Shown here piece after piece: positions 1,788 through 22,232 of a stretch of 24,609 nt of DNA. Each line of letters starts with the position of its first letter. The first letter of the stretch is position 1. Origin of the DNA: a virus; IMG/VR virus record IMGVR_UViG_3300046000_003288, positions 1 through 24,609 of that record. One strand, given 5' to 3'. Both the position numbers and the translations under genes were made by a program. Under the pieces are notes generated by a model. The model made no database searches. It was not told where the DNA came from and saw only the letters and a list, made by a program, of their open reading frames with translations.

Positions 1788-1998
1788 AACTACACTCTTT
1801 CCTTCTATGAAGCAGAATAGGCTTCTCGCTTGTTGGAATACCTCTAGCTGTTAATTCTCGAGCTAGGGCTGGTGGTGTCCATTGTTCGTTAGCAATCGCA
1901 TTGACAAGAATTTCTTTGTCTTTCGCATCTAGCGAATTCAAAATTGTTCTTACTTTGCAGGTCGGTATCTTTACTACTGGTTTCATTCCCTCTAGCAT
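1777..1998 (-). CDS. small HTH-like protein with C-terminal Cys pair
   Basis: This 73-aa protein has the layout CKVRTIL - SLDAKDKEIL - helical block - LARELTARGI - HRRKECSCAR. That resembles a family of small phage and actinobacterial proteins with a predicted helix-turn-helix core and a short Cys-x-Cys tail. The middle (residues 24-55) reads like a DNA-binding domain; what it binds is unknown. An AAAGGGG ribosome site lies five bases before the ATG. It overlaps the upstream gene by 110 bases and the metallophosphoesterase by 11, so all three are likely co-translated. The family resemblance is from memory of the pattern and not tested. Confidence 0.65.
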   Translation of the reverse strand: MLEGMKPVVKIPTCKVRTILNSLDAKDKEILVNAIANEQWTPPALARELTARGIPTSEKPILLHRRKECSCAR

Positions 1999-2212
1999 CG
2001 CTGCCCCTTTCAGTTTCTCTTATCAAGTTTAGAGCTAGGTCACCGATTTCCGGCTCAAGGTAGTGCCATTCAACTTGCATTATTCTTTCCAATAATCTCG
2101 CAAGGTTACGCCTAATTGCCTCTAGGTCGCTTGACCAGACTAGGTTTTCATCCTTAAGTAGATTGATAGCCTCGAAGATTTCACGCTCATCAGCGTTTGT
2201 AAAGTGAGTCAT
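1889..2212 (-). CDS. hypothetical protein
   Basis: I do not recognise this 107-aa protein. The first ~68 residues are acidic and helical (MTHFTNADEREIFEAINL...) and look like a normal small helical phage protein. The last ~36 residues are rich in Arg, Asn and Cys and overlap the next gene in another frame, so that part is constrained by the neighbour's coding. The ATG overlaps the stop of the 40-aa gene upstream (CGATGA), which favours coupling. It could simply be a small regulatory or structural helper; no function is claimed. Confidence 0.6.
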   Translation of the reverse strand: MTHFTNADEREIFEAINLLKDENLVWSSDLEAIRRNLARLLERIMQVEWHYLEPEIGDLALNLIRETERGSDARGNETSSKDTDLQSKNNFEFARCERQRNSCQCDC

Positions 2213-2331
2213 CGTGACACCTTGTATAGGAATGTGTAAAAGGCACGCCGGATTCTTAGTGTCTTATAGGCCCAATGAACTCGCATAATGCGCCAGTTAA
2301 TCGGTTGCCTCTCAGCTCTATGCTTTCCCAA
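2209..2331 (-). CDS. very small basic protein (40 aa)
   Basis: A TTG-started frame preceded by a GAGGG ribosome site (GTGAGGGACATTG) encodes 40 residues rich in Arg, Lys, Trp and Tyr (for example NWRIMRVHWAYK and RRAFYTFLYKVSR). Its stop overlaps the next ATG in an ATGA junction and its start overlaps the end of the upstream gene, as the rest of the operon does. It otherwise fills a 105-base gap in a gene string that has almost no gaps. A basic, aromatic peptide could bind nucleic acid or a host enzyme, but this is only a suggestion. An internal ATG at residue 16 is an alternative start. Confidence 0.42.
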   Translation of the reverse strand: MGKHRAERQPINWRIMRVHWAYKTLRIRRAFYTFLYKVSR

Positions 2332-2566
2332 TGTCCCTCACCGCCTCGATAACTTCAACAACTCTCTCGAGCGTATCAATATCTGCCGTCATTCTCAAGA
2401 CTGCGTCCTGATTAATTGCGTAAATAACTTGCTGGGTAAGATACTCTGCCATATCTTTTGCGCCTTCCTCATAGCCTTTCGAGTAGCCTCTACCAAAGGC
2501 CATTGTAAGCTTCCGGGCTTTCTTTTCCTCCCGGTTAGGTCTCCATCCAATCATTTTTCTGGCCAC
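2318..2566 (-). CDS. hypothetical basic/helical protein
   Basis: This 82-aa protein has a basic N-terminus (residues 1-20, MARKMIGWRPNREEKKARKL), a G-rich turn GRGYSKGYEEG near 25-35, and a helical C-terminal half. I do not recognise the family. It overlaps the DUF1599-like gene upstream by 16 bases and the 40-aa gene downstream by 14, so it is part of the compact early operon. The amphipathic C-terminal helix could mediate self-assembly or binding to a partner. Confidence 0.68.
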   Translation of the reverse strand: MARKMIGWRPNREEKKARKLTMAFGRGYSKGYEEGAKDMAEYLTQQVIYAINQDAVLRMTADIDTLERVVEVIEAVRDIGKA

Positions 2567-2862
2567 TCTCCATCTAGGACTAGCAAACCAATAATTGCGT
2601 AGTTTGCTAAGTCAATAAAAGAATCCCTCAAGGCTTCGTGCTCAGGTGCGTTACCTGAGTCAGTTAGGTGATTGATTCTTGCTAGCTTGTCGTGCATCCG
2701 GACTCGTAGGCCGTTGATAGGCCCGCCGGGTGCGTTGCTAATGTTCGTTGGTCCGTAATCATTATGCTTTGACAAAAGTAGCTCTGCGTTCTCATTAAAG
2801 TATCGAAGAACTGTTGCGTCAAAGTTAGTGCTTAGGTGTACCCCTTTTATTGGTGACTTCAT
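2551..2862 (-). CDS. DUF1599-like (nucleotide-modification-associated) protein
   Basis: This 103-aa protein has the pattern LLSKHNDYGP (near 29-38), GGPINGLRVRMHDKLARINHL (near 47-67, written in part) and LRDSFIDLANYAIIGLLVL (near 80-98). The order KHxDYG - glxvRxxDKlxR - DxxxDlaNYaii matches the DUF1599 / nucleotide-modification-associated domain 1 family, which comparative genomics links to phage nucleotide or base modification. The fold is related in style to all-alpha NTP pyrophosphohydrolases, so a nucleotide-handling role is plausible. No other base-modification gene is visible here, so the pathway remains open. It overlaps the upstream gene by 4 bases. Confidence 0.68.
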   Translation of the reverse strand: MKSPIKGVHLSTNFDATVLRYFNENAELLLSKHNDYGPTNISNAPGGPINGLRVRMHDKLARINHLTDSGNAPEHEALRDSFIDLANYAIIGLLVLDGEWPEK

Positions 2863-3149
2863 GGTTTCTCTGTTACCTCCGCAATTAGGTCTTTCGCTTG
2901 CTTCTCGATTTTATTTATTGTGTAAGCAAGTTCATCGAGGTTTTCGATTAGCTTGTCAAGGGTGCCATCCATCATGGCATCGACTTGAAGGTTCATGTCC
3001 TTCTTGTCTGCGTAGTTGATTTCAAACACGATATCTTCCGCTGTAACTATGTAGCCTTGGTCAAGGTGGATAGAAACAAACTCGAGTATCTGGTCACGCT
3101 GGTAGCGAATCCCGGCATAAAAGCCTTCTGAGTATGGTGTCAGTTTCAT
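2859..3149 (-). CDS. hypothetical helical protein
   Basis: This 96-aa protein starts MKLTPYSEGFYAGIRYQRDQIL, followed by an acidic middle and a long amphipathic helix (residues ~55-92, with repeated Leu/Ile/Asp). I do not recognise a family. The start SEGFYAGIRYQRDQI recalls small phage proteins that open with a G-Y-A-G-x-x-x-x-R motif, but no function is known. It ends with an ATGA overlap into the DUF1599-like gene. Confidence 0.68.
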   Translation of the reverse strand: MKLTPYSEGFYAGIRYQRDQILEFVSIHLDQGYIVTAEDIVFEINYADKKDMNLQVDAMMDGTLDKLIENLDELAYTINKIEKQAKDLIAEVTEKP

Positions 3150-3151
3150 AG

Positions 3152-3394
3152 CTACCTCGATGAAATGTTGTACTCGGGGTCAACATAGATTTCGATGTTC
3201 TCGACAATCTCGATGACTCTAGCGATTGCTTTGGTTGGGATTGGGTAGGCAGCTTTGATAAGGCTTAGGACCTCATTCTTCATTAGCATCCTGCCCATGT
3301 AAATTCCGTCAGACTTAGCTACACCGAAGTTGTACTGGTGAGGCTGAAAGTCTTTGACTGCGAACTCTAATGGCTCCGGGTTATAGTTAGGCAT
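3152..3394 (-). CDS. hypothetical protein
   Basis: This 80-aa protein has no recognised domain. It has a polar N-terminal half (PNYNPEPLEFAVKDFQPHQ) with a YMGRMLMKNEVL segment, then a predicted helix (residues ~45-68). It overlaps the upstream gene by 8 bases and is separated from the next by two. The context is the small-gene string between the ArdA-like protein and the metallophosphoesterase. Confidence 0.65.
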   Translation of the reverse strand: MPNYNPEPLEFAVKDFQPHQYNFGVAKSDGIYMGRMLMKNEVLSLIKAAYPIPTKAIARVIEIVENIEIYVDPEYNISSR

Positions 3395-3569
3395 TTTCTC
3401 TCATTTCTTTGTAGGTGTTCTTAATGTGTTCGATTAGCTCAATGCGAGCCTTAGCTTCGTTGCGTGTCTGGGCTGTCATACCCGGTACACCTTCTTGAAG
3501 CGTGAACTGATTCTCGGTCCATCTCTGGGCCTCGGCGATGATTCGCTCTGCTAGTTCTTGTTCATTCAT
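3387..3569 (-). CDS. hypothetical small helical protein
   Basis: This 60-aa, mostly helical and charged protein (MNEQELAERIIAEAQRW...) has no recognised family. Its ATG overlaps the stop of the small membrane protein upstream in an ATGA junction, and its end overlaps the next gene by 8 bases. The close overlaps support it as a real member of the operon even though it is short. Confidence 0.62.
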   Translation of the reverse strand: MNEQELAERIIAEAQRWTENQFTLQEGVPGMTAQTRNEAKARIELIEHIKNTYKEMRENA

Positions 3570-3730
3570 TTACGAGTGTCCTTTGTTAGTGCGTTAACTG
3601 CTACAAAGAAGGCAAGAATCAAACCTGCGACTCCGAGCGTGTAACCCCAGCCGAGATGTATTTCTTGAATCTCCCAGCTCACAAGCATGATTCCGGTTAG
3701 AGCGAAGATATAAAGAATTATTGTCTTCAT
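3566..3730 (-). CDS. small two-TM membrane protein (54 aa)
   Basis: The frame starts at an ATG that shares one base with the upstream stop (TAATG) and ends in an ATGA overlap with the next gene, so it is locked into the operon. It encodes MKTIILYIFALTGIMLVSW..., a first hydrophobic segment at residues ~3-19, a short polar loop (EIQEIHLGWGY), a second segment at ~31-48, and a basic tail TKDTRK. This fits a small inner-membrane protein. Such early phage membrane proteins can act in superinfection exclusion or host take-over, but nothing here shows which. Confidence 0.68.
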   Translation of the reverse strand: MKTIILYIFALTGIMLVSWEIQEIHLGWGYTLGVAGLILAFFVAVNALTKDTRK

Positions 3731-3903
3731 TACTTCACCTCTACAAAATACCGGCGAATGACTTCAAACTCTTTCGAGCTGATTTCAACTTCGGTAAGGA
3801 TTTGACCGGCAACCTTGATTGACACGATGGCATTATCCATGTCATCGAACTCAACCGAGCCTGTAGCCTTGATGCTTCCTGTTTCTAGTTCAGTTGTGAA
3901 CAT
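3730..3903 (-). CDS. hypothetical small protein (57 aa)
   Basis: This 57-aa frame opens at an ATG preceded by GAGGA with about eight bases of spacing, overlaps the upstream gene by 14 bases, and runs into the membrane-protein start. The product alternates hydrophobic and polar residues (SIKATGSVEFDDMDNAIVSI; AGQILTEVEISSKEFEVI), which predicts a small beta-rich domain ending in a short helix. I do not recognise a family. Confidence 0.65.
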   Translation of the reverse strand: MFTTELETGSIKATGSVEFDDMDNAIVSIKVAGQILTEVEISSKEFEVIRRYFVEVK

Positions 3904-4078
3904 TTAGTGTTTCCTCTCTTTGGTCTTTTACATCTCTTTCGATTAGGTCGAGGATTAGCCCGAAGCCCAATCCTGTGTATCCATCTTTCAGAAGTCCCCA
4001 GAAAAGCTCAATCAGGTCTTCTGTTTTGTATACTCCTTGGTTGTCGTACTTGTTTTTGTTCTCGCATTTACAGCTCAT
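3890..4078 (-). CDS. hypothetical small protein with CxC start (62 aa)
   Basis: The chosen start is the ATG at 4078, because AAAGAGGAAAAG lies directly before it; a start further upstream would overlap the ArdA-like gene and has no such site. The product begins MSCKCENKNKYDN, then has a helical region EDLIELFWGLLKDG and a second one LGFGLILDLIERDV. A CxC start with hydrophobic helices could suggest metal or membrane contact, but the family is not recognised. Confidence 0.62.
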   Translation of the reverse strand: MSCKCENKNKYDNQGVYKTEDLIELFWGLLKDGYTGLGFGLILDLIERDVKDQREETLNVHN

Positions 4079-4100
4079 CTTTTCCTCTTTCTTTTTGTTG

Positions 4101-4517
4101 TTAGTAAGCCCACCAGAAAAACTGGCGGTAATTTCCGTCAATGTCTATGACCTTGTAATTAAAAAAGTCGTGCCTAAGATTCCGGTCCCAAGTAGCTTGG
4201 TAATCGATAACAATGTAGTTAGGCAAGTCTTTAGAAATGTCCCCGGTTTCTTCGAGTAGCTCCCGAGTAAATTCTTCCTCACTCTCGGCCTCACCCCGGT
4301 AACTGTCCTGCTCTTGTGAAATTAAATGCGGCAGGTCTTCGGGAACTAGGCTTGAGCAAGAGTTGTAGGCATACAAGGCAACTCGAATAAGTTCCTCATC
4401 GCTTAGGTCCTGAGTGAACTCTATGAACTCCGGGTCTGTCTTGAACTGGTTGTAAAAGTTCCCGGCACCGGTGTAGGTTTCGCCGTTCCAAGCAACTAAG
4501 TTAGTAATCGTTTCCAT
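4101..4517 (-). CDS. ArdA-like antirestriction protein (candidate)
   Basis: This 138-aa, very acidic protein has a helical first half with DLSDEELIRVALYAYNS, then the segment SYRGEAESEEEFTRELLEE (near 72-90), LPNYIVIDYQATWDRNLRHD (near 98-117) and a C-terminal GNYRQFFWW. ArdA proteins are DNA mimics that block type I restriction enzymes; their C-terminal parts carry a YxGxxxSxxxFA block, an IDxExxAR-type block and a final aromatic strand, in the same order as here. The strong negative charge also fits DNA mimicry. Identity is low by eye, so this is a candidate. The early-gene location suits an antirestriction role. Confidence 0.5.
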   Translation of the reverse strand: METITNLVAWNGETYTGAGNFYNQFKTDPEFIEFTQDLSDEELIRVALYAYNSCSSLVPEDLPHLISQEQDSYRGEAESEEEFTRELLEETGDISKDLPNYIVIDYQATWDRNLRHDFFNYKVIDIDGNYRQFFWWAY

Positions 4518-4519
4518 TT

Positions 4520-4726
4520 TTAAATCTCCTTTAGTTTCATAGTTAGGTATCTTTTGTGCAGTTCGATTCGTGAATCTAGTTCCTCGATAGTTTCGTAAAT
4601 CTGGTCAGCTTCCCAACCCTCACCCTTCTCAGTAGCTTCCTCGTGGAACTCTTGCTTCTCTTTTCGCTCATCGACTAACTCGGCAAGCTGGTCGACTAGG
4701 TCCTGAAGATATTCGATTTGAGTCAT
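4520..4726 (-). CDS. coiled-coil hypothetical protein (68 aa)
   Basis: This 68-aa protein is almost entirely charged heptads (YLQDLVDQLAELVDERKEKQ; ETIEELDSRIELHKRYL), so a two-helix coiled coil is expected. A GGGAAAAAG ribosome site precedes the ATG. It lies two bases from the ArdA-like gene and may be its partner, but this is only proximity. No family is recognised. Confidence 0.66.
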   Translation of the reverse strand: MTQIEYLQDLVDQLAELVDERKEKQEFHEEATEKGEGWEADQIYETIEELDSRIELHKRYLTMKLKEI

Positions 4727-4753
4727 TTTCTTTTTCCCTTTCCCGGGGGAGGC

Positions 4754-5110
4754 CTAAGCCTCCACCCTTTCTTTTCCTAGAACAAATAAATCTTTACCCT
4801 TGACCTCGGTAGTAAATCCGGCTGCGTCTAGGCAAGCCTTGTAATCGACTGAGCTAAGTTGACGGCTATTTATAAATGGGTTGTCGGATTTCGCCCACCT
4901 GCGGATTCTTAGTTTGGTCTGAGTGATTGAGCCATCGTGCCAGATTGTTCCCTCGATTAGCTCAAAGGTAAATCCGCCGTGGCAGTTCTGCCATCTACGA
5001 CCTGCGGTGTTATTCATGTTAGAAATTGTTGCGCTAGTAAATCCGGCCCAGCGAAGCCTTGCGGCAACCTCAGCCTTAAGAGTTTTTGTGTCTTCTGCGG
5101 TTAGTAACAT
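4754..5110 (-). CDS. hypothetical protein (118 aa)
   Basis: I do not recognise this protein. It has a helical N-terminus (LTAEDTKTLKAEVAARLRWAGF), a central part with Asn, Cys, His and Trp (NNTAGRRWQNCHGGF), a likely beta strand region with IWHDGSITQTKLRIRRW, and a C-terminal DYKACLDAAGFTTEV...LFVLGKE unit. The last unit resembles small alpha-beta phage proteins with a repeated AGF motif, also seen at WAGF near residue 22. It is the first gene after the 10-bp repeat array and has a GGAG site six bases before the ATG. Confidence 0.66.
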   Translation of the reverse strand: MLLTAEDTKTLKAEVAARLRWAGFTSATISNMNNTAGRRWQNCHGGFTFELIEGTIWHDGSITQTKLRIRRWAKSDNPFINSRQLSSVDYKACLDAAGFTTEVKGKDLFVLGKERVEA

Positions 5111-5160
5111 TTGGTGCTCCTATCTTCGACCCCCCTTGGGCCTTGTATCGAGCATACTAA

Positions 5161-5200
5161 AATTTCGGTGAATTTCGGGGAATTTCGGTAAATTTCGGGA
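5161..5200. repeat. four 10-bp direct repeats (iteron-like)
   Basis: Four consecutive units of AATTTCGG plus two variable bases (TG, GG, TA, GA) fill 5161-5200 without gaps, in the intergenic space between the RusA gene and the 118-aa gene. A 10-bp period places each unit on the same face of the helix, as in iterons and in activator or repressor arrays. A TATGCT box on the minus strand (5151-5156) lies right at its leftward end and could be a -10 box for the downstream gene, so the repeats would cover the -35 region. Origin or operator function is inferred. Confidence 0.75.
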
Positions 5201-5225
5201 AATGTTATAAAACCGTTACAAAGGC

Positions 5226-5624
5226 CTAAAACAGGGTTTTTACGGTGATTTGAGCCCCGGCCGGTATTCCTAAGGCGTAGAGCTTCCGGGCCGAAATTCG
5301 GACAATCCGGCTATCATCGGCCACTACCCCGGAATCGGTAAGGGAATCACCGACAGCTCTGATGAGCTTGTCTAAGTCCGGGGACACGCTCGGTAGCTCC
5401 CGGTTGACTGTCTTCGGTTTAGGTAAATAGAAGTTGACTATAAGTTCGCAGGGCTCATCTATCGGTTGCCAGTCGCTAGGTAATGTTGCTAACGCTTCCT
5501 CAGCTATAGCTTTGCGCCAAGCCTTGTGCTTAGAGCTATTGACTTGAACTATTCGGCCACGCATTATGGCGTGTGAGCCTTGGCTTACCGGGGTGCCAGT
5601 AACACTAAAGCTTACCTCTGCCAT
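5226..5624 (-). CDS. rusA: RusA-family Holliday junction resolvase
   Basis: This protein cuts four-way DNA junctions, resolving recombination intermediates or trimming branched DNA before packaging. Counting from a possible upstream TTG at 5642, it has VNFYLPKPK near 69-77, PDLDKLIR at 88-95 and DDSRIV at 109-114. D89, D91 and D110 keep the 2 and 19 residue spacing of the three catalytic Asp of E. coli RusA, and R95 sits where that enzyme has Lys76. I prefer the ATG at 5624 because MAEVSFSV matches the usual first beta strand and a GGAA lies just upstream. It overlaps the small membrane protein gene by 20 bases. Confidence 0.87.
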   Translation of the reverse strand: MAEVSFSVTGTPVSQGSHAIMRGRIVQVNSSKHKAWRKAIAEEALATLPSDWQPIDEPCELIVNFYLPKPKTVNRELPSVSPDLDKLIRAVGDSLTDSGVVADDSRIVRISARKLYALGIPAGAQITVKTLF

Positions 5625-5772
5625 AAAGATTCCATGCTCCAAGTATGGCAGCCCAGAGGTAGAGAATACCGAAGACTAGCCCCACACCATCAAGAACGCT
5701 TTTATCTTGAAGCGATAGGTTCAACAGTATGCCGGCGGTAATGGCAGGGACTAGCCAACGGAGATTTTTCAA
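5605..5772 (-). CDS. small two-TM membrane protein (55 aa)
   Basis: A TTG start overlaps the SSB-like gene stop as TTGA, with a GGAG site eleven bases upstream. The product, MKNLRWLVPAITAGILL..., has a first hydrophobic helix at ~5-20, a polar turn with LQDKSVLDG, and a second helix at ~29-49 (GLVFGILYLWAAILGAW), ending GRGKL. Its end overlaps the RusA start. A membrane protein inserted between SSB and resolvase genes is unexpected. It could have a host take-over role, but nothing shows this. The hydrophobic pattern and both overlaps argue against a chance frame. Confidence 0.66.
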   Translation of the reverse strand: MKNLRWLVPAITAGILLNLSLQDKSVLDGVGLVFGILYLWAAILGAWNLYGRGKL

Positions 5773-6101
5773 AAGGGACTTGGCTCCGAGTGAGTCGGCT
5801 CAAAGATTCCCTTGATTACTTGTAGAGGCTCTGCTGGTACAACCAAGGGGTTGTTAATGCTTACCTTGATTGACTGCTTTGCTTCGCCTTCCTTGTTAGT
5901 CCAGTTATCAATCTCTGATGAGTAGAGACCTTCAACCTGAACTGTGTCCCCAGCTTCTAGGGTGGTTGGCTGCTTTAGCCAAACTGTGTAACGCTTTTGA
6001 ATCGTGTCTCCGGTCTTAGTTTCGTAAGCCTCGACTACCTCGATGCCTTTGCCTTCATAGAAGACTCGACTGATACTGCCCTTTACTTTGATGATTGCCA
6101 T
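5769..6101 (-). CDS. SSB-like OB-fold protein
   Basis: This 110-aa protein has alternating beta strands: IIKVKGSISRVFYEGKGIEVVEAYET, KRYTVWLKQP near 36-45, AGDTVQVEGLYSSEI near 50-64, and SIKVSINNPLVV near 77-88. That is the layout of a small OB fold of the SSB type (KRYTVWxKxP... GDxVxVxGxYSSE). The C-terminus ends EPSPF, resembling the acidic-plus-PF tip that SSBs use to recruit partners. It likely coats single-stranded DNA in replication and recombination. AAAGGA before the ATG supports the start. It is short for a bacterial SSB (~150-180 aa), as phage SSBs often are. Confidence 0.72.
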   Translation of the reverse strand: MAIIKVKGSISRVFYEGKGIEVVEAYETKTGDTIQKRYTVWLKQPTTLEAGDTVQVEGLYSSEIDNWTNKEGEAKQSIKVSINNPLVVPAEPLQVIKGIFEPTHSEPSPF

Positions 6102-6134
6102 CTCTTTTTTTCCTTTCGGTTTTGTTTTTTTACT

Positions 6135-6410
6135 CTAGTGGTTACCAACGACATGATTGGGATTCGTGCAGTCGGTATGCCCACAAGACCTAACGCCGGG
6201 GAGAACCGGCTTGCCGTCAAAGATTGGAATTGTAAGGGTAGCCTTGTCGAAATCTCCCTGCCAAGGGATACACTTCTCGGACCCATACTTGATAACCAAG
6301 GCTCTGTGCATCCGGCAGGATTGGCACTTGAGGTCTTTTCGCTTCCGCTTCTGCGTGTTGACTTTCCAAGTCGCTCCGCATCGGCAGCATAAGGCCACAT
6401 TGTCATCCAT
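6135..6410 (-). CDS. zinc-binding HNH-like protein
   Basis: This 91-aa protein has two CxxC pairs (C9/C12 and C29/C32) and a C-terminal CGHTDCTNPNHVVG. The CxHxxCxNPxH end is typical of the HNH_3 group of HNH nucleases and of related zinc-finger proteins of phages. The central CIPWQGDFD segment is also part of that family look. The single-chain length is small and a classic catalytic HNH cannot be confirmed, so it may be a DNA-binding zinc protein. It lies between the DnaB-like helicase and the SSB-like gene. Confidence 0.65.
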   Translation of the reverse strand: MDDNVALCCRCGATWKVNTQKRKRKDLKCQSCRMHRALVIKYGSEKCIPWQGDFDKATLTIPIFDGKPVLPGVRSCGHTDCTNPNHVVGNH

Positions 6411-6419
6411 CCCATAATC

Positions 6420-11180: not shown

Positions 11181-11450
11181 ATGACATTACGCCAGATTGA
11201 ACGGAAATATATCGAATTACAGGAAGCTATAAGGGAAAATGATGGGGTCGAGTGCTCCCAGCTCCCGGATGTTTTCTTTCCCGAAGGGGATACCGGCTCA
11301 GCCGAGTATCGAGCAACAGTAAAGATAGCCAAGGCTGTTTGCGCAGATTGCCCTATCAGAAGGTTGTGCGAAGATTACGCTAGAGCCGCTAATATGCAGG
11401 GTATCTGGGGAGGCACTACTTACTTTGAAAGGCAAAAATATAAAGACTAG
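11181..11450 (+). CDS. whiB: WhiB-family regulator
   Basis: This 89-aa protein has the four Cys of the WhiB family (C25, C54, C57, C63, the CxxC-x5-C form) and GIWGG at 74-78, with a basic tail ERQKYKD. WhiB proteins hold a [4Fe-4S] cluster and bind the primary sigma factor to redirect transcription; phage copies can suppress host whiB-type genes and affect superinfection. This is the only rightward gene. The -10 box lies six bases before the ATG and there is no ribosome site, so it is probably leaderless. It ends on a CTAG shared with the holin-like gene, so both stops overlap by 3 bases on opposite strands. Confidence 0.93.
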   Translation: MTLRQIERKYIELQEAIRENDGVECSQLPDVFFPEGDTGSAEYRATVKIAKAVCADCPIRRLCEDYARAANMQGIWGGTTYFERQKYKD

Positions 11451-12774: not shown

Positions 12775-13136
12775 TACTCTGCTTCTTCAGAAAAGTCCCG
12801 AAGCTCCCAATTTAGTTCTTCTTCATTCCAAGTGTATGTAAAGCCGTCAGTTGGGTAAGGCACAGGTGCTTCCCATTGGCAAGTTTGCTCATTAAGTGTC
12901 CAAGAGTCAAAAGGCTTAGGAGAGATAAAGGCATCGCGCTCAGCATCGTAGGTAAAACCAATGCCGGCGTAGTTTTTTCTAATGTTGTTGTTGTAGCTTG
13001 TTCTTTTACAGGTCTGGCCTCTAAAGTTGCCGTACCAAGTTTCAGGGTCAAGGCCCTCAATCAGCTGGCTTTCATCAATACCAGTAATGACCTCTGTGAC
13101 AATGTTGTCACTATCTAAAAAAGCGTAATGCGCCAT
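12774..13136 (-). CDS. small conserved tail-associated protein
   Basis: The chosen start is ATG at 13136 (MAHYAFLDSDNIVTEVITG), since it overlaps the adhesin stop as TAATG, rather than a TTG three codons upstream. The 120-aa product has GQTCKRTSYNNN near 38-49, RKNYAGIGFTYD near 51-62, RDAFISPKPFDSW near 66-78, and several Trp and Glu in the tail. This MAHYAFLD...RKNYAGIGxTYD... pattern is widespread in aquatic phages, usually beside tail-fibre genes, and is not characterised. It probably forms part of the tail tip or helps fold the adhesin. Confidence 0.78.
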   Translation of the reverse strand: MAHYAFLDSDNIVTEVITGIDESQLIEGLDPETWYGNFRGQTCKRTSYNNNIRKNYAGIGFTYDAERDAFISPKPFDSWTLNEQTCQWEAPVPYPTDGFTYTWNEEELNWELRDFSEEAE

Positions 13137-14785
13137 TATGTCCAACTCACATTTCCAGTTCCAGCGGTAATCGTGGTCACTTTATCACTTCCAACAGTTG
13201 TTGTAGAAGCAGTTAACCCAGCTCCTATTGTAATTGTATTAGCAGCAGGGTATTTGAAAATTACAACTCCAGAACCACCAGCACCAGCAGGACCTCTGCC
13301 AGAGAAACTGTCACCACCACCACCACCAGAACCAGTATTTGTACTACCAGCAGTTGGACCAGAAGTGTTTCGTTTAGCTCCTTGACCACCTCCACCAGTA
13401 CCACCAGAAGCAACCGCTAATGAAGAACCTCTCGCACCGCCACCTCCACCAGCTCTAGTAACAGATGTTCCAGTAATGCTAGAAGCTAAACCTGCTCCTC
13501 CAGTAGACCCAGAGGCTCCAGAAATTCCAGCACCACCAGCACCACCACCGCCACCACCAGCAAAACCTTCATTAGTAGCAACAAAGTTTCCAGCTCCACC
13601 ATTACTACCTTGACCAGATGGAGATGCTGAACCAGAAGCTCCATCATAAGGAGCACCACCGCCAGAGCCGCCATTTAGGGCGTTTAGACCGGCTCCACCG
13701 CCACCTCCACCACCAGTAGCAGTTATGGATGAAAAAACGCTGTTAGACCCAGAAGTACCATTGGAGCTGTTCCCAGAACCACCAGCACCACCAGCTCCAA
13801 CAGTGACAGTATAAGATTCAGTCAAAGTTAAGGTGACATTAGATGCTGTTAGGTATCCACCTGCACCACCACCACCAGAAGCGGAATCACCACCACCACC
13901 ACCGCCAGCGATAACCAAGTATTCCGCAATCATTCGCTGTGCTGCTAACCAACTCACATTTCCAGTTCCAGCGGTGATTGTAGCTATTTCGTCAGACCCA
14001 ACTAGAGATTTTGTACCAGTTAAGCCAGCTCCAAGAGTAATAGAAAAGGTATTTGGGTAGCGTAAAACTACAAGACCAGAAGCACCTGCTGCCGGGTTGT
14101 ATGAAGTTGGGGAACGGAAATATCTTCCAAAACCACCAGAGCCTGTATTAGCAGCTGGGTCAGTTCTAAGAGTTCCTGTGTCACCAGCACCAGCACCACC
14201 AACTGCTCGTGTAACGCTAGAGCCAGTTATAGATGAGGCTAAACCTGTTCCAGCAGCACCAGGAGTGTTACCAGAACTGTTGCCACCAGCACCACCAGCA
14301 CCACCACCACCTCCACCAGATTGACTAACGCCAACAACATAAGCTCCACTACCACCACCTAAACCTTGTAACGCAGTTCCAGAACCACCAGAGGCACCAC
14401 CACCACCAGTATTGTTACCACCACCACCACCAGAGCCACCAGTTAATCCTGCACCAAATGTGGTGTTGTTACCAGCTCCACCACCACCACCACCCAAAGA
14501 TGTAATAGTAGCAACTTGAGAATTTGAACCAGATGCACCTTGCGTTCCACCAAGGGCTCCACCTGCTCCAACAGTGACAACATAGTTTGTAGAAGAATTT
14601 AGCGACAGGGGAGTTTCGGCTGCAGAATTAGCACCAGATGACTCGCCAGTAACAGATAATCTGTAACCACCGGCTCCACCACCACCTTCAGAACCAGCAC
14701 CACCACCAGCTAGAACTAAAAAGTTAACTACTAGAGTTTGAAAAGCTGACCCTGCTGCTGAAAGAATCCCAAAAGGAATCAACAT
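13136..14785 (-). CDS. duplicated polyglycine tail adhesin
   Basis: This 549-aa protein is dominated by Gly/Ser runs with two tandem modules of 269 residues: residues ~19-279 and ~288-548. Both begin with NFLVLAGGG or EYLVIAGGG, contain YxVTVGAGGA and LASSITGxSVTRA, and end with TITAGTGNVSW. Such Gly-rich phage proteins can fold as polyglycine-II sandwiches and act as receptor-binding adhesins at the tail tip, as in the S16-type adhesin. The position downstream of hub and minor tail proteins fits. No TM or enzyme motif is seen. The start has no clear ribosome site; the gene begins three bases after the preceding stop. Confidence 0.72.
   Translation of the reverse strand: MLIPFGILSAAGSAFQTLVVNFLVLAGGGAGSEGGGGAGGYRLSVTGESSGANSAAETPLSLNSSTNYVVTVGAGGALGGTQGASGSNSQVATITSLGGGGGGAGNNTTFGAGLTGGSGGGGGNNTGGGGASGGSGTALQGLGGGSGAYVVGVSQSGGGGGGAGGAGGNSSGNTPGAAGTGLASSITGSSVTRAVGGAGAGDTGTLRTDPAANTGSGGFGRYFRSPTSYNPAAGASGLVVLRYPNTFSITLGAGLTGTKSLVGSDEIATITAGTGNVSWLAAQRMIAEYLVIAGGGGGGDSASGGGGAGGYLTASNVTLTLTESYTVTVGAGGAGGSGNSSNGTSGSNSVFSSITATGGGGGGGAGLNALNGGSGGGAPYDGASGSASPSGQGSNGGAGNFVATNEGFAGGGGGGAGGAGISGASGSTGGAGLASSITGTSVTRAGGGGGARGSSLAVASGGTGGGGQGAKRNTSGPTAGSTNTGSGGGGGDSFSGRGPAGAGGSGVVIFKYPAANTITIGAGLTASTTTVGSDKVTTITAGTGNVSWT
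13142..13975. repeat. direct DNA repeat marking the adhesin duplication
   Basis: A 27-base identical stretch ending CCAGCGGT occurs at 13142-13168 and at 13949-13975, 807 bases apart (exactly 269 codons). It marks the ends of the two adhesin modules. The identity is longer than the protein similarity would need, so a recent duplication or repeated gene conversion is likely, and recombination between the copies would delete one module in frame. Confidence 0.8.
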
Positions 14786-20397: not shown

Positions 20398-21045
20398 CTA
20401 GTCCCAGCTATTCTCTCGGCGTATCTTTAGTGACCACTCGCCACTTCTAAGGTTATTTTCAGCTCGCCTTTGCTCGTAAAGTCTTTGGTTGATTGAAAAG
20501 GTGTGAGCATTTTTAGGACCATAGCCAGCGGCAATAGTGGAGCTGTTGTTATGGTGAATTGTGGCGTGGATACGCTTTTTAGGTATTCCATGTGCATCAA
20601 TAATTCTTTCATAGTCATTGTCATCAAAGTAAAGTGGATGAAACAACTCACTACATAATCCAGCCTTTAGAACTACACCCTCACCGATAGCAATAAAGGC
20701 CCAATCGGGAACAGCGTCCGTAAAGTTTAAAGCCTCAGTATCTACCTCGTTGTGTATCTTTTCTAAAGCACCGGGGGCACAATAAGTATCTTCGCTGGCA
20801 AAGACCCAATACTTAGAGTGAGGGGTTGATTTAATAACAAAGTTCATCGCTGCTGTTGGCCCTAAACCAAAAGGAACTTGTATAAGCCAAAGATTCTTTA
20901 CTGTGTCTGGCTTTATAGGCTTAAACTCCCGCTTGCCAGAATTGTCAACAATTACAAGATGCTCAACTGGGTAGTCAATAGAGTCAATCATTCTTTGGGC
21001 TAGGTCGTGCCTAGCGTAAGTTGGGAAAGCTAAGACCGGAATCAT
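20398..21045 (-). CDS. glycosyltransferase, GT-A fold (family 2-like)
   Basis: This 215-aa protein starts MIPVLAFPTYARHDLAQRMIDSI, has LVIVDNSG (residues 30-37) as nucleotide-binding strand, PFGLGPTAAMNFVI near 58-71 and the metal-binding ASEDTY at 83-88 in the place of the DxD motif. It transfers a sugar from a nucleotide sugar to an acceptor, in the cytoplasm. It is short for a family-2 enzyme, as phage versions often are, and ends with a basic KIRRENSWD. Its ATG overlaps the GT4 stop (ATGA), so both are made together. The acceptor is probably capsid or tail protein, from position only. Confidence 0.8.
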   Translation of the reverse strand: MIPVLAFPTYARHDLAQRMIDSIDYPVEHLVIVDNSGKREFKPIKPDTVKNLWLIQVPFGLGPTAAMNFVIKSTPHSKYWVFASEDTYCAPGALEKIHNEVDTEALNFTDAVPDWAFIAIGEGVVLKAGLCSELFHPLYFDDNDYERIIDAHGIPKKRIHATIHHNNSSTIAAGYGPKNAHTFSINQRLYEQRRAENNLRSGEWSLKIRRENSWD

Positions 21046-22232
21046 TTAAGTAACTTTCTTAGAATTGGCATCCAGTTATTCTCCCATACCTTTTCAACAT
21101 CGAACTGACTCGCAAAGTCTATGGCTACCTGTGATGGTCCACGCTCCGCTTTGTAAGACTCTTCAAGCGCATTTACTAAGCTAGATACATTGGGGGTCAT
21201 CCACCAAGCATCTTGTCCAGCATCCCAACTTAGCTGTCCATCGGTTAGCCAAGAGTCAGGGCTTACTAGGTCCGGGGTAGCTGCCCAGTTAGAACCGATT
21301 ACCCTAGTGCCACAAGCCTGAGCCTCAACGCTAGGAACGCCAAAGCCTTCACCAAAGCTAGGCGCAAGCAAGACATCCATTCGACTATAAAGAGCAGCAA
21401 GGTCAGCTTGAGCTAGTCCGAACCTGTAATCATTAGGGTTAGGAAAGATGACCTGCTCTTTAGGTATACCAACCGAGTTCAGGATGTTTAGTAAGTTCCA
21501 ACCACCGGCTTGACCCATACCATCTGTGTGTAGATACAAAACAGCATCAGAGTGTTTCTTAGCAAAGATACTAAAGGCAAGGATAAGTTCGCCGAAAGCT
21601 TTCCGGTGTACTAGGCCTGATGCCTTGTTAGCCGCAACAACTCCGACTAGGAACTGGTCTGGCTCTAGTCCCATATAAGCGTTTATCTCGTGTTTACCTA
21701 TTTTGCTTGTTGGCTTGTAAACCTTGGTATCTATTGCGTGAGGTGCGTACTCACAAGCAATACCCTTTTCGGTTAGCTGTCTTACTCCGTGTGGTGACAT
21801 CGCTATTGGGGTGACATTCTCTTTGCGTAAAAACTTTTCAACTCCCGGCGGTAAGGTTACATGGTCAAGCGGTGTCCAAGCTGCGATTGGAAAATCATCG
21901 TAAAGCTTTGACTTCATAACCCAGACATCGTAAAGACTTATAAAAAGATTTGGTTTGTCGTGCTGTGAGATAAAGGTCTTGTGGTCAACCGGACCCGAAT
22001 CATTTGAGTAAAGGTCAAGGCCTCTTGGGTAGTGTGGAACTTTTCCATAAGGGGTTGAGATTGTCCCGGGGATTCCCTCAAGCCCATAGTTAGAAAGCAT
22101 TGCGACATCAAGGCCAGAGCGTTTGAGTCGGTCAAGCAACATAGTCGCTTGTTGTCCGTATCCGGTTGGTGCGTTGTAGCTGTTAGACCAAAGGCTTACA
22201 GCTCCAGTCAGTTTCTCTTTATTTGTAGGCAT
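21042..22232 (-). CDS. glycosyltransferase, GT-B fold (family 4-like)
   Basis: This 396-aa enzyme has an N-terminal acceptor domain (SNSYNAPTGYGQQATMLLDR) and a C-terminal nucleotide-sugar domain with VGVVAANKASGLVHRKAF near 196-213 and the EX7E motif E295-GFGVPSV-E303. Such retaining GT4 enzymes add sugars to proteins, lipids or cell-wall acceptors. It starts six bases after a TATTGT box and without a ribosome site, right behind the capsid terminator. It probably glycosylates capsid or tail subunits; changing host envelope sugars is the alternative. Confidence 0.87.
   Translation of the reverse strand: MPTNKEKLTGAVSLWSNSYNAPTGYGQQATMLLDRLKRSGLDVAMLSNYGLEGIPGTISTPYGKVPHYPRGLDLYSNDSGPVDHKTFISQHDKPNLFISLYDVWVMKSKLYDDFPIAAWTPLDHVTLPPGVEKFLRKENVTPIAMSPHGVRQLTEKGIACEYAPHAIDTKVYKPTSKIGKHEINAYMGLEPDQFLVGVVAANKASGLVHRKAFGELILAFSIFAKKHSDAVLYLHTDGMGQAGGWNLLNILNSVGIPKEQVIFPNPNDYRFGLAQADLAALYSRMDVLLAPSFGEGFGVPSVEAQACGTRVIGSNWAATPDLVSPDSWLTDGQLSWDAGQDAWWMTPNVSSLVNALEESYKAERGPSQVAIDFASQFDVEKVWENNWMPILRKLLK

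Follow-up and report, generated by a model that had tools for sequence, protein, structure and literature searches.

A stretch of viral DNA of 24,609 nucleotides (IMG/VR record IMGVR_UViG_3300046000_003288, positions 1 to 24,609; hereafter the window) contains a short acidic open reading frame whose product had been likened, on a sequence-only reading, to the ArdA DNA mimics. This raised the questions of whether the product is related to ArdA, which parts of ArdA it retains, and what it might do for the phage.

The gene and its acidic product

The coordinates given by that reading, 4101-4517, proved to be exact; the strand, which had been left unstated, is the minus strand. An intact frame of 138 codons runs from an ATG at 4517 to a stop codon at 4101, and the plus-strand reading of the same segment is closed by stop codons. 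A Shine-Dalgarno sequence, AAAGGAG (4526-4532, minus strand), is located 8 bases before the ATG. The dN/dS ratio, calculated with dS near saturation, was 0.054 against the homologue in locus L002 and 0.10 against that in L003. Because the ATG is preceded by a ribosome-binding sequence and the ratio against L002 is so low, it was concluded that the frame is a real gene, conserved under purifying selection. A copy encoding a 100% identical protein is present in L001, where the frame upstream of the gene contains no start codon; the protein is thus not an N-terminally clipped product of a longer reading frame.

The encoded protein of 138 residues (P0001) contains 28 acidic (D/E) and 9 basic (K/R) residues, which corresponds to a net charge of -19 and a pI of 4.09 and bears out the strong negative charge assigned to it beforehand. 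It is the second most acidic per residue among the 47 listed minus-strand proteins and, with -0.138 per residue, lies within the range of the classical ArdA set (mean -0.166, range -0.106 to -0.201). The three blocks on which the likeness had been founded were all recovered: YxGxxxSxxxF (Y73-R-G75-E-A-E-S79-E-E-E-F83), LPNYIVIDYxATW (residues 98-110 read LPNYIVIDYQATW) and the aromatic end, FFWWAY.

Relationship to ArdA and domain architecture

ArdA (PF07275) was the only Pfam family matched by the window protein at E≤10. The match (E 8.8e-6, 26.9 bits, profile positions 61-144 of 155) falls 0.1 bit short of the gathering cut-off of 27 bits; the profile search proposed with the original reading therefore pointed to ArdA but did not make the protein a full Pfam member. 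The best PHROG match was 36653, an anti-restriction protein (9.5e-7), and covered residues 55-118 only. NCBIfam and PADLOC returned nothing useful for the protein. A weak Nudix match (0.018, far below its cut-off) was rejected, and the resemblance of the ATW block to the thioredoxin segment VDFTATW (E 0.37) was set aside as a chance likeness.

Profile-profile comparisons by hhalign were carried out with four alignments: the six nearest relatives, window protein included (A2); nine classical ArdA proteins, R64 among them (A4); five cyanophage relatives, four of which are annotated as anti-restriction and one as hypothetical (A5); and a family of 46 members (A7). The six nearest relatives matched classical ArdA with a probability of 94% (E 1.5e-7) and the cyanophage set with 98.6%; against classical ArdA, the cyanophage set reached 97.8% and the 46-member family 98.5%. 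When the ArdA alignment was column-shuffled 60 times, the highest probability was 1.4% for the six relatives and 2.8% for the 46-member family, and reversal of the alignment gave 0.1-0.2%; both controls preserve composition.

Individual members behaved much as the window protein did. ArdA was matched at E≤1 by five of the eight members of one alignment. All eight of a second set matched it as well; these matches scored under the threshold and were located in the C-terminal portion of the profile. In a scan of seven more members, with R64, MyraDee and ProddE as positive controls, sub-threshold ArdA matches were obtained for S-PM2, L014 and L016 and none for S-TIM5, NATL2A-133, L022 and L023. 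ArdA was matched at E≤1 in eight of the 16 source records of the relatives, always short of the cut-off. A search of PDB sequences with family-only profiles gave no ArdA match, and a match to an ArdA crystal structure was discounted as not independent, since classical ArdA proteins had been included in the query. Taken at the level of sequence profiles, homology of the window protein to ArdA domains 2 and 3 appears well supported.

An AlphaFold2 model built from the 46 sequences (pLDDT 87.4, pTM 0.79) predicts four N-terminal helices followed by a strand-helix-helix-strand-strand arrangement. In a search of predicted viral structures, the best 18 matches comprised eight proteins named antirestriction, one cytochrome c-552 and nine unnamed or uncharacterised proteins, one of these nine being the NATL2A-133 protein already present in the cyanophage alignment; the query-normalised TM-scores of the best ten were moderate (0.31-0.54). 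A Foldseek search of the same model against the PDB gave nothing at E≤0.001, and VIA-align gave a best Z of 2.8, to an unrelated structure, among 323 chains; the ArdA structure 2W82 was listed in neither. An earlier model from six sequences was poor (pLDDT 68.6) and yielded only noise in fold searches. The predicted fold may thus be regarded as supportive of a kinship with ArdA through predicted viral relatives, and neither a fold unlike ArdA nor a match to an unrelated family, the two outcomes named in advance as counting against ArdA, was encountered.

The limits of the three ArdA domains are given as residues 1-61, 62-103 and 104-165 (PMC3906837). Two HMMs, one for domain 1 (Orf18 1-61, YxAxxxxYNxGxLxGxW) and one for domains 2-3 (Orf18 62-165), were built from eight classical ArdA proteins without the window protein; the ArdA of Tn916 (Orf18), identical to PDB 2W82, was held out of both and was recovered at 1.1e-14 and 6.7e-19, respectively. 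The domain 2-3 HMM matched the window protein at 7.5e-7, and 57 of the 58 targets at E≤10. With the domain-1 HMM, the window protein was not matched at E≤10, and the best score outside the classical ArdA proteins was 0.75. Since an Aeromonas phage PT2 protein (L056) annotated as antirestriction also showed a poor domain-1 match (E 2.4), loss of domain 1 is not unique to the family of the window protein. By these profile criteria, the window protein is a shortened, domain-1-less ArdA and not a full ArdA: the proposed relationship stands on sequence profiles and on the viral fold search, but not in the form of a standard ArdA.

The gene (4101-4517, minus strand) can accordingly be described in three parts. 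Residues 1-27 (4437-4517, minus strand), VAWNGETYTGAGNFYNQF, form a short N-terminal piece at the place of the 61-residue domain 1; the piece is kept in the six nearest relatives and gives no domain-1 profile match. Residues 28-72 (4302-4436, minus strand), a division of our own, are helical in the model (helices 29-35, 40-53 and 59-72) and align with domain 2, in agreement with the domain 2-3 HMM. Residues 73-138 (4104-4301, minus strand) align with domain 3, the dimer-interface and methylase-contacting domain, and comprise the strand-helix-helix-strand-strand part of the model. Seven acidic positions of Tn916 ArdA reported as mutated (PMC3906837), D109, D111, D112, D115, E122, E123 and E129, align with E76, E78, S79, E82, E89, E90 and D97, so that six of the seven are acidic in the window protein (D112 being replaced by S79), and the interface leucines L127 and L134 with I94 and I102; these correspondences were read from a low-identity MAFFT alignment (A8).

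Compared with Tn916 Orf18 and R64 ArdA, the window protein shares domains 2-3, the acidic helix start, the conserved PxxxxxID[YW]xA motif and a conserved L. In the domain-3 part it is identical to R64 ArdA at 23 of 55 aligned residues and to Tn916 ArdA at 14 of 60. In contrast, it is shorter (138 residues versus 165-166), its DYQATWDRNL block has one residue more than the Tn916 counterpart (DYQAYGRDL), and its C-terminal hairpin is longer than in either protein.

The aquatic-phage family, the probable host and the genome context

When IMG/VR was scanned with the cyanophage alignment, relatives were found to be encoded in 186 stretches; 80 of these were retained. Their C-terminal part is common, their N-termini differ, and the length class is the same across this large family. 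Judged by this similarity, the window protein belongs to a large, mostly unannotated ArdA-like family of aquatic phages. The cyanophage anti-restriction proteins (S-TIM5 YP_010419878, S-PM2 YP_195106; L024 and L054) fall in the same subfamily: they share with it a [VI]D[YW]xATWDxxLxxDF-like block and the lack of a domain-1 match, but differ in their N-terminus, their marine cyanobacterial hosts and their higher acidity (mean -0.181 per residue). In the cyanophage NATL2A-133 (L055), the gene for the ArdA-like "hypothetical protein" adjoins a DNA methyltransferase gene (360-722 and 788-1186).

The N-termini were compared in 67 distinct proteins, namely 53 of the 80 kept loci and 14 members of the 46-sequence alignment; L099 and 26 further loci, mostly with match scores equal to those of included loci, were left out. 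The N-terminal motif of the window protein, VAWNGETYxGxGxxY, is confined among these 67 to the six nearest relatives. A different module, LTGxxLL...CGY...FYxxLL, starts at least 21 of the 67, a lower bound because at least two proteins beginning with MLTG, L016 and L018, escaped the regular expression. In L071, L088, L098, L131, L014 and others, this module (LTGxxLLxKV..CGY..FYxxLL) replaces ArdA domain 1. It may resemble cyanobacterial AbrB-like regulators; Pfam gave no AbrB-like match in the four LTG-class members scanned (L071, L131, L098 and L114), a tblastn search of one LTG-type N-terminus against phages found nothing, and nothing relevant was found in the literature joining ArdA with AbrB in cyanobacteria or antirestriction with AbrB in phage. 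Among 84,980 bacterial and archaeal genomes, 18 pattern matches for the nearest group included no true relative. Three scans for family members overlapped to a large extent, and two further family scans added no new relatives. No description of the pattern of domain loss and N-terminal swap was found in the literature surveyed, largely by listing.

The phage resembles phiPsal1, isolated from Pontimonas salivibrio: 20 of the 47 phiPsal1 proteins tested (56 annotated) match the window at E≤1e-3, and the head and tail genes lie in corresponding order. Because of this resemblance, the host is probably an aquatic member of the Microbacteriaceae. Furthermore, a contig of an uncultured genome from the Microbacteriaceae encodes a capsid protein with 53% identity to that of the window. 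P. salivibrio is a coastal marine member of this family, and a restriction system located in genomic islands is mentioned in its genome description (PMC6106888). A match to HsdS, the type I specificity subunit (PF01420), was found in 64 of 199 genomes drawn from the family to which the uncultured genome belongs, a count that may be too low as genome completeness was not given. This count agrees with the claim that restriction systems must be present in the host group, but does not prove the "must".

The ArdA-like gene is located between the replication genes and a phosphoesterase, in a module at 1788-6419. At the equivalent module, phiPsal1 (L147) encodes an N6 DNA methylase (25118-26392). The methylase has no match in the window and the ArdA-like gene has no convincing match in phiPsal1, which hints, from a single genome pair, that the two genes may serve as alternative means against one and the same host defence. 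In L002, L005 and L010, unlike in the window, the ArdA-like gene is found beyond an HNH gene (at 3992-4414 in L002 and L005), and in L002 it lies about 0.7 kb from a homologue of the window neighbour at 3890-4078. This difference in position indicates that the gene moves between sites as a cassette.

Other genes of the window were recorded in passing. The product of 2551-2862 (minus strand) matches Pfam DUF1599, "Nucleotide modification associated domain 1", above the cut-off, with a possible link to modified bases in phage DNA; no literature joining antirestriction, phage and DUF1599 was found. A WhiB-family transcription factor (11181-11450, plus strand) is common to phiPsal1, as are two glycosyltransferase-like genes in the head cluster right after the capsid gene (20398-22232, minus strand). 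The tail region encodes a 549-residue, very glycine-rich and internally repetitive protein (13136-14785, minus strand).

Proposed function and alternative explanations

ArdA is described as an inhibitor of type I enzymes that acts as a mimic of about 42 bp of DNA (PMC3906837). We consider it likely, with fair though not full confidence, that the shortened, domain-1-less protein of the window protects phage DNA in a related manner, as a DNA mimic that binds the HsdS/HsdM core of a type I host enzyme. In this scheme, the acidic domain-3 equivalent, with the domain-2 equivalent in front, would dock in the DNA-binding groove of HsdS/HsdM, probably as a dimer, and would thereby block both modification and restriction. 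The window protein's mimicry of DNA and its dimerisation are inferred, as are its type I target and the time at which it is expressed. As to timing, an ArdA-like gene of the Rhodococcus phage WC1 is reported to be upregulated by five minutes after infection, while the host raises a type I RM system (PMC10986025), and such early expression fits what would be expected here.

In Tn916 ArdA, according to PMC3906837, domain-3 mutations abolished antimodification and mostly spared antirestriction, which was assigned to domains 1-2. As domain 1 is missing, antimodification would be expected of the window protein, with a narrower or weaker range of antirestriction. By analogy, domains 2-3 alone should be enough for binding to the methylase core and for preventing modification; relief of restriction is likely, with uncertain strength. 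The expected behaviour is like that of sArdC of Lactococcus, which consists of the C-terminal ArdA part only and is credited with antirestriction and antimethylation activity; sArdC is described as chromosomal, in Lactococcus and Actinomycetota, and about one-third or half the size of ArdA (PMC12548430). By this description, both proteins lack the N-terminal domain and retain the C-terminal part with the dimer interface, but the window protein is phage-borne, has 138 residues and keeps the domain-2 helices.

Several observations weigh against this assignment. Among the six nearest relatives, the net charge is as weak as -0.069 per residue in one, which weakens a strict DNA mimicry, HsdS was matched in a minority of host-family genomes, and more distant family members often score lower than the window protein with Pfam ArdA or are not matched. 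One may ask whether an ArdA-derived DNA mimic has been turned mainly against another DNA-binding protein, such as a different defence enzyme or a transcription regulator of host or phage, with the changed N-terminus setting the target. The variation of the N-terminal pieces between branches of the family, the constancy of the C-terminal part and the roughly two-thirds of host-family genomes without an HsdS match would suit this explanation, and R64 ArdA and sArdC are reported to open a promoter repressed by AllR in E. coli, so that regulators, too, can be affected by ArdA proteins (PMC13300388). On the other hand, antirestriction activity is reported for the ArdA relatives examined in the literature consulted (PMC3906837, PMC12548430) and nothing in our analysis indicates a specific alternative target; we therefore regard this explanation as unlikely. 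A broader proposal, in which domains 2-3 form a portable DNA-mimic core of aquatic phages that swapped N-terminal modules (the VAWNGETY piece or LTGxxLL..CGY) redirect to different DNA-binding defence or regulatory proteins and not only to type I restriction enzymes, is speculative and we consider it doubtful.

Two further explanations would deny the protein any such role. Alignments of acidic proteins at low identity can mislead, and 2W82 was recovered neither by family-only profiles nor by fold, as might be expected if the likeness to ArdA were fortuitous and the protein belonged to an unrelated family. The gap between the shuffled or reversed profiles and the real ones, the ordered agreement at P99, in the D-[YW]-x-A block and at L114, and the predominance of antirestriction among the named viral fold matches render this very improbable. 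The absence of an entire domain, together with a score below the family cut-off, would also be compatible with a decayed, inactive ArdA remnant; the signs of purifying selection, the intact frame with its ribosome-binding site and the common length class across a large family leave hardly any room for such decay.

Protection of phage DNA by a shortened ArdA is thus the explanation that we retain: the window protein appears ordinary in kind and its function probable. On sequence grounds, ArdA-type antirestriction in a shortened form would extend to phages of aquatic actinobacteria and to many aquatic phage contigs that lie below the Pfam cut-off. The N-terminal and C-terminal pieces of ArdA are each reported to work alone, which leaves open what parts are needed (PMC12548430); if active, the window protein would reveal which portions of ArdA are indispensable.
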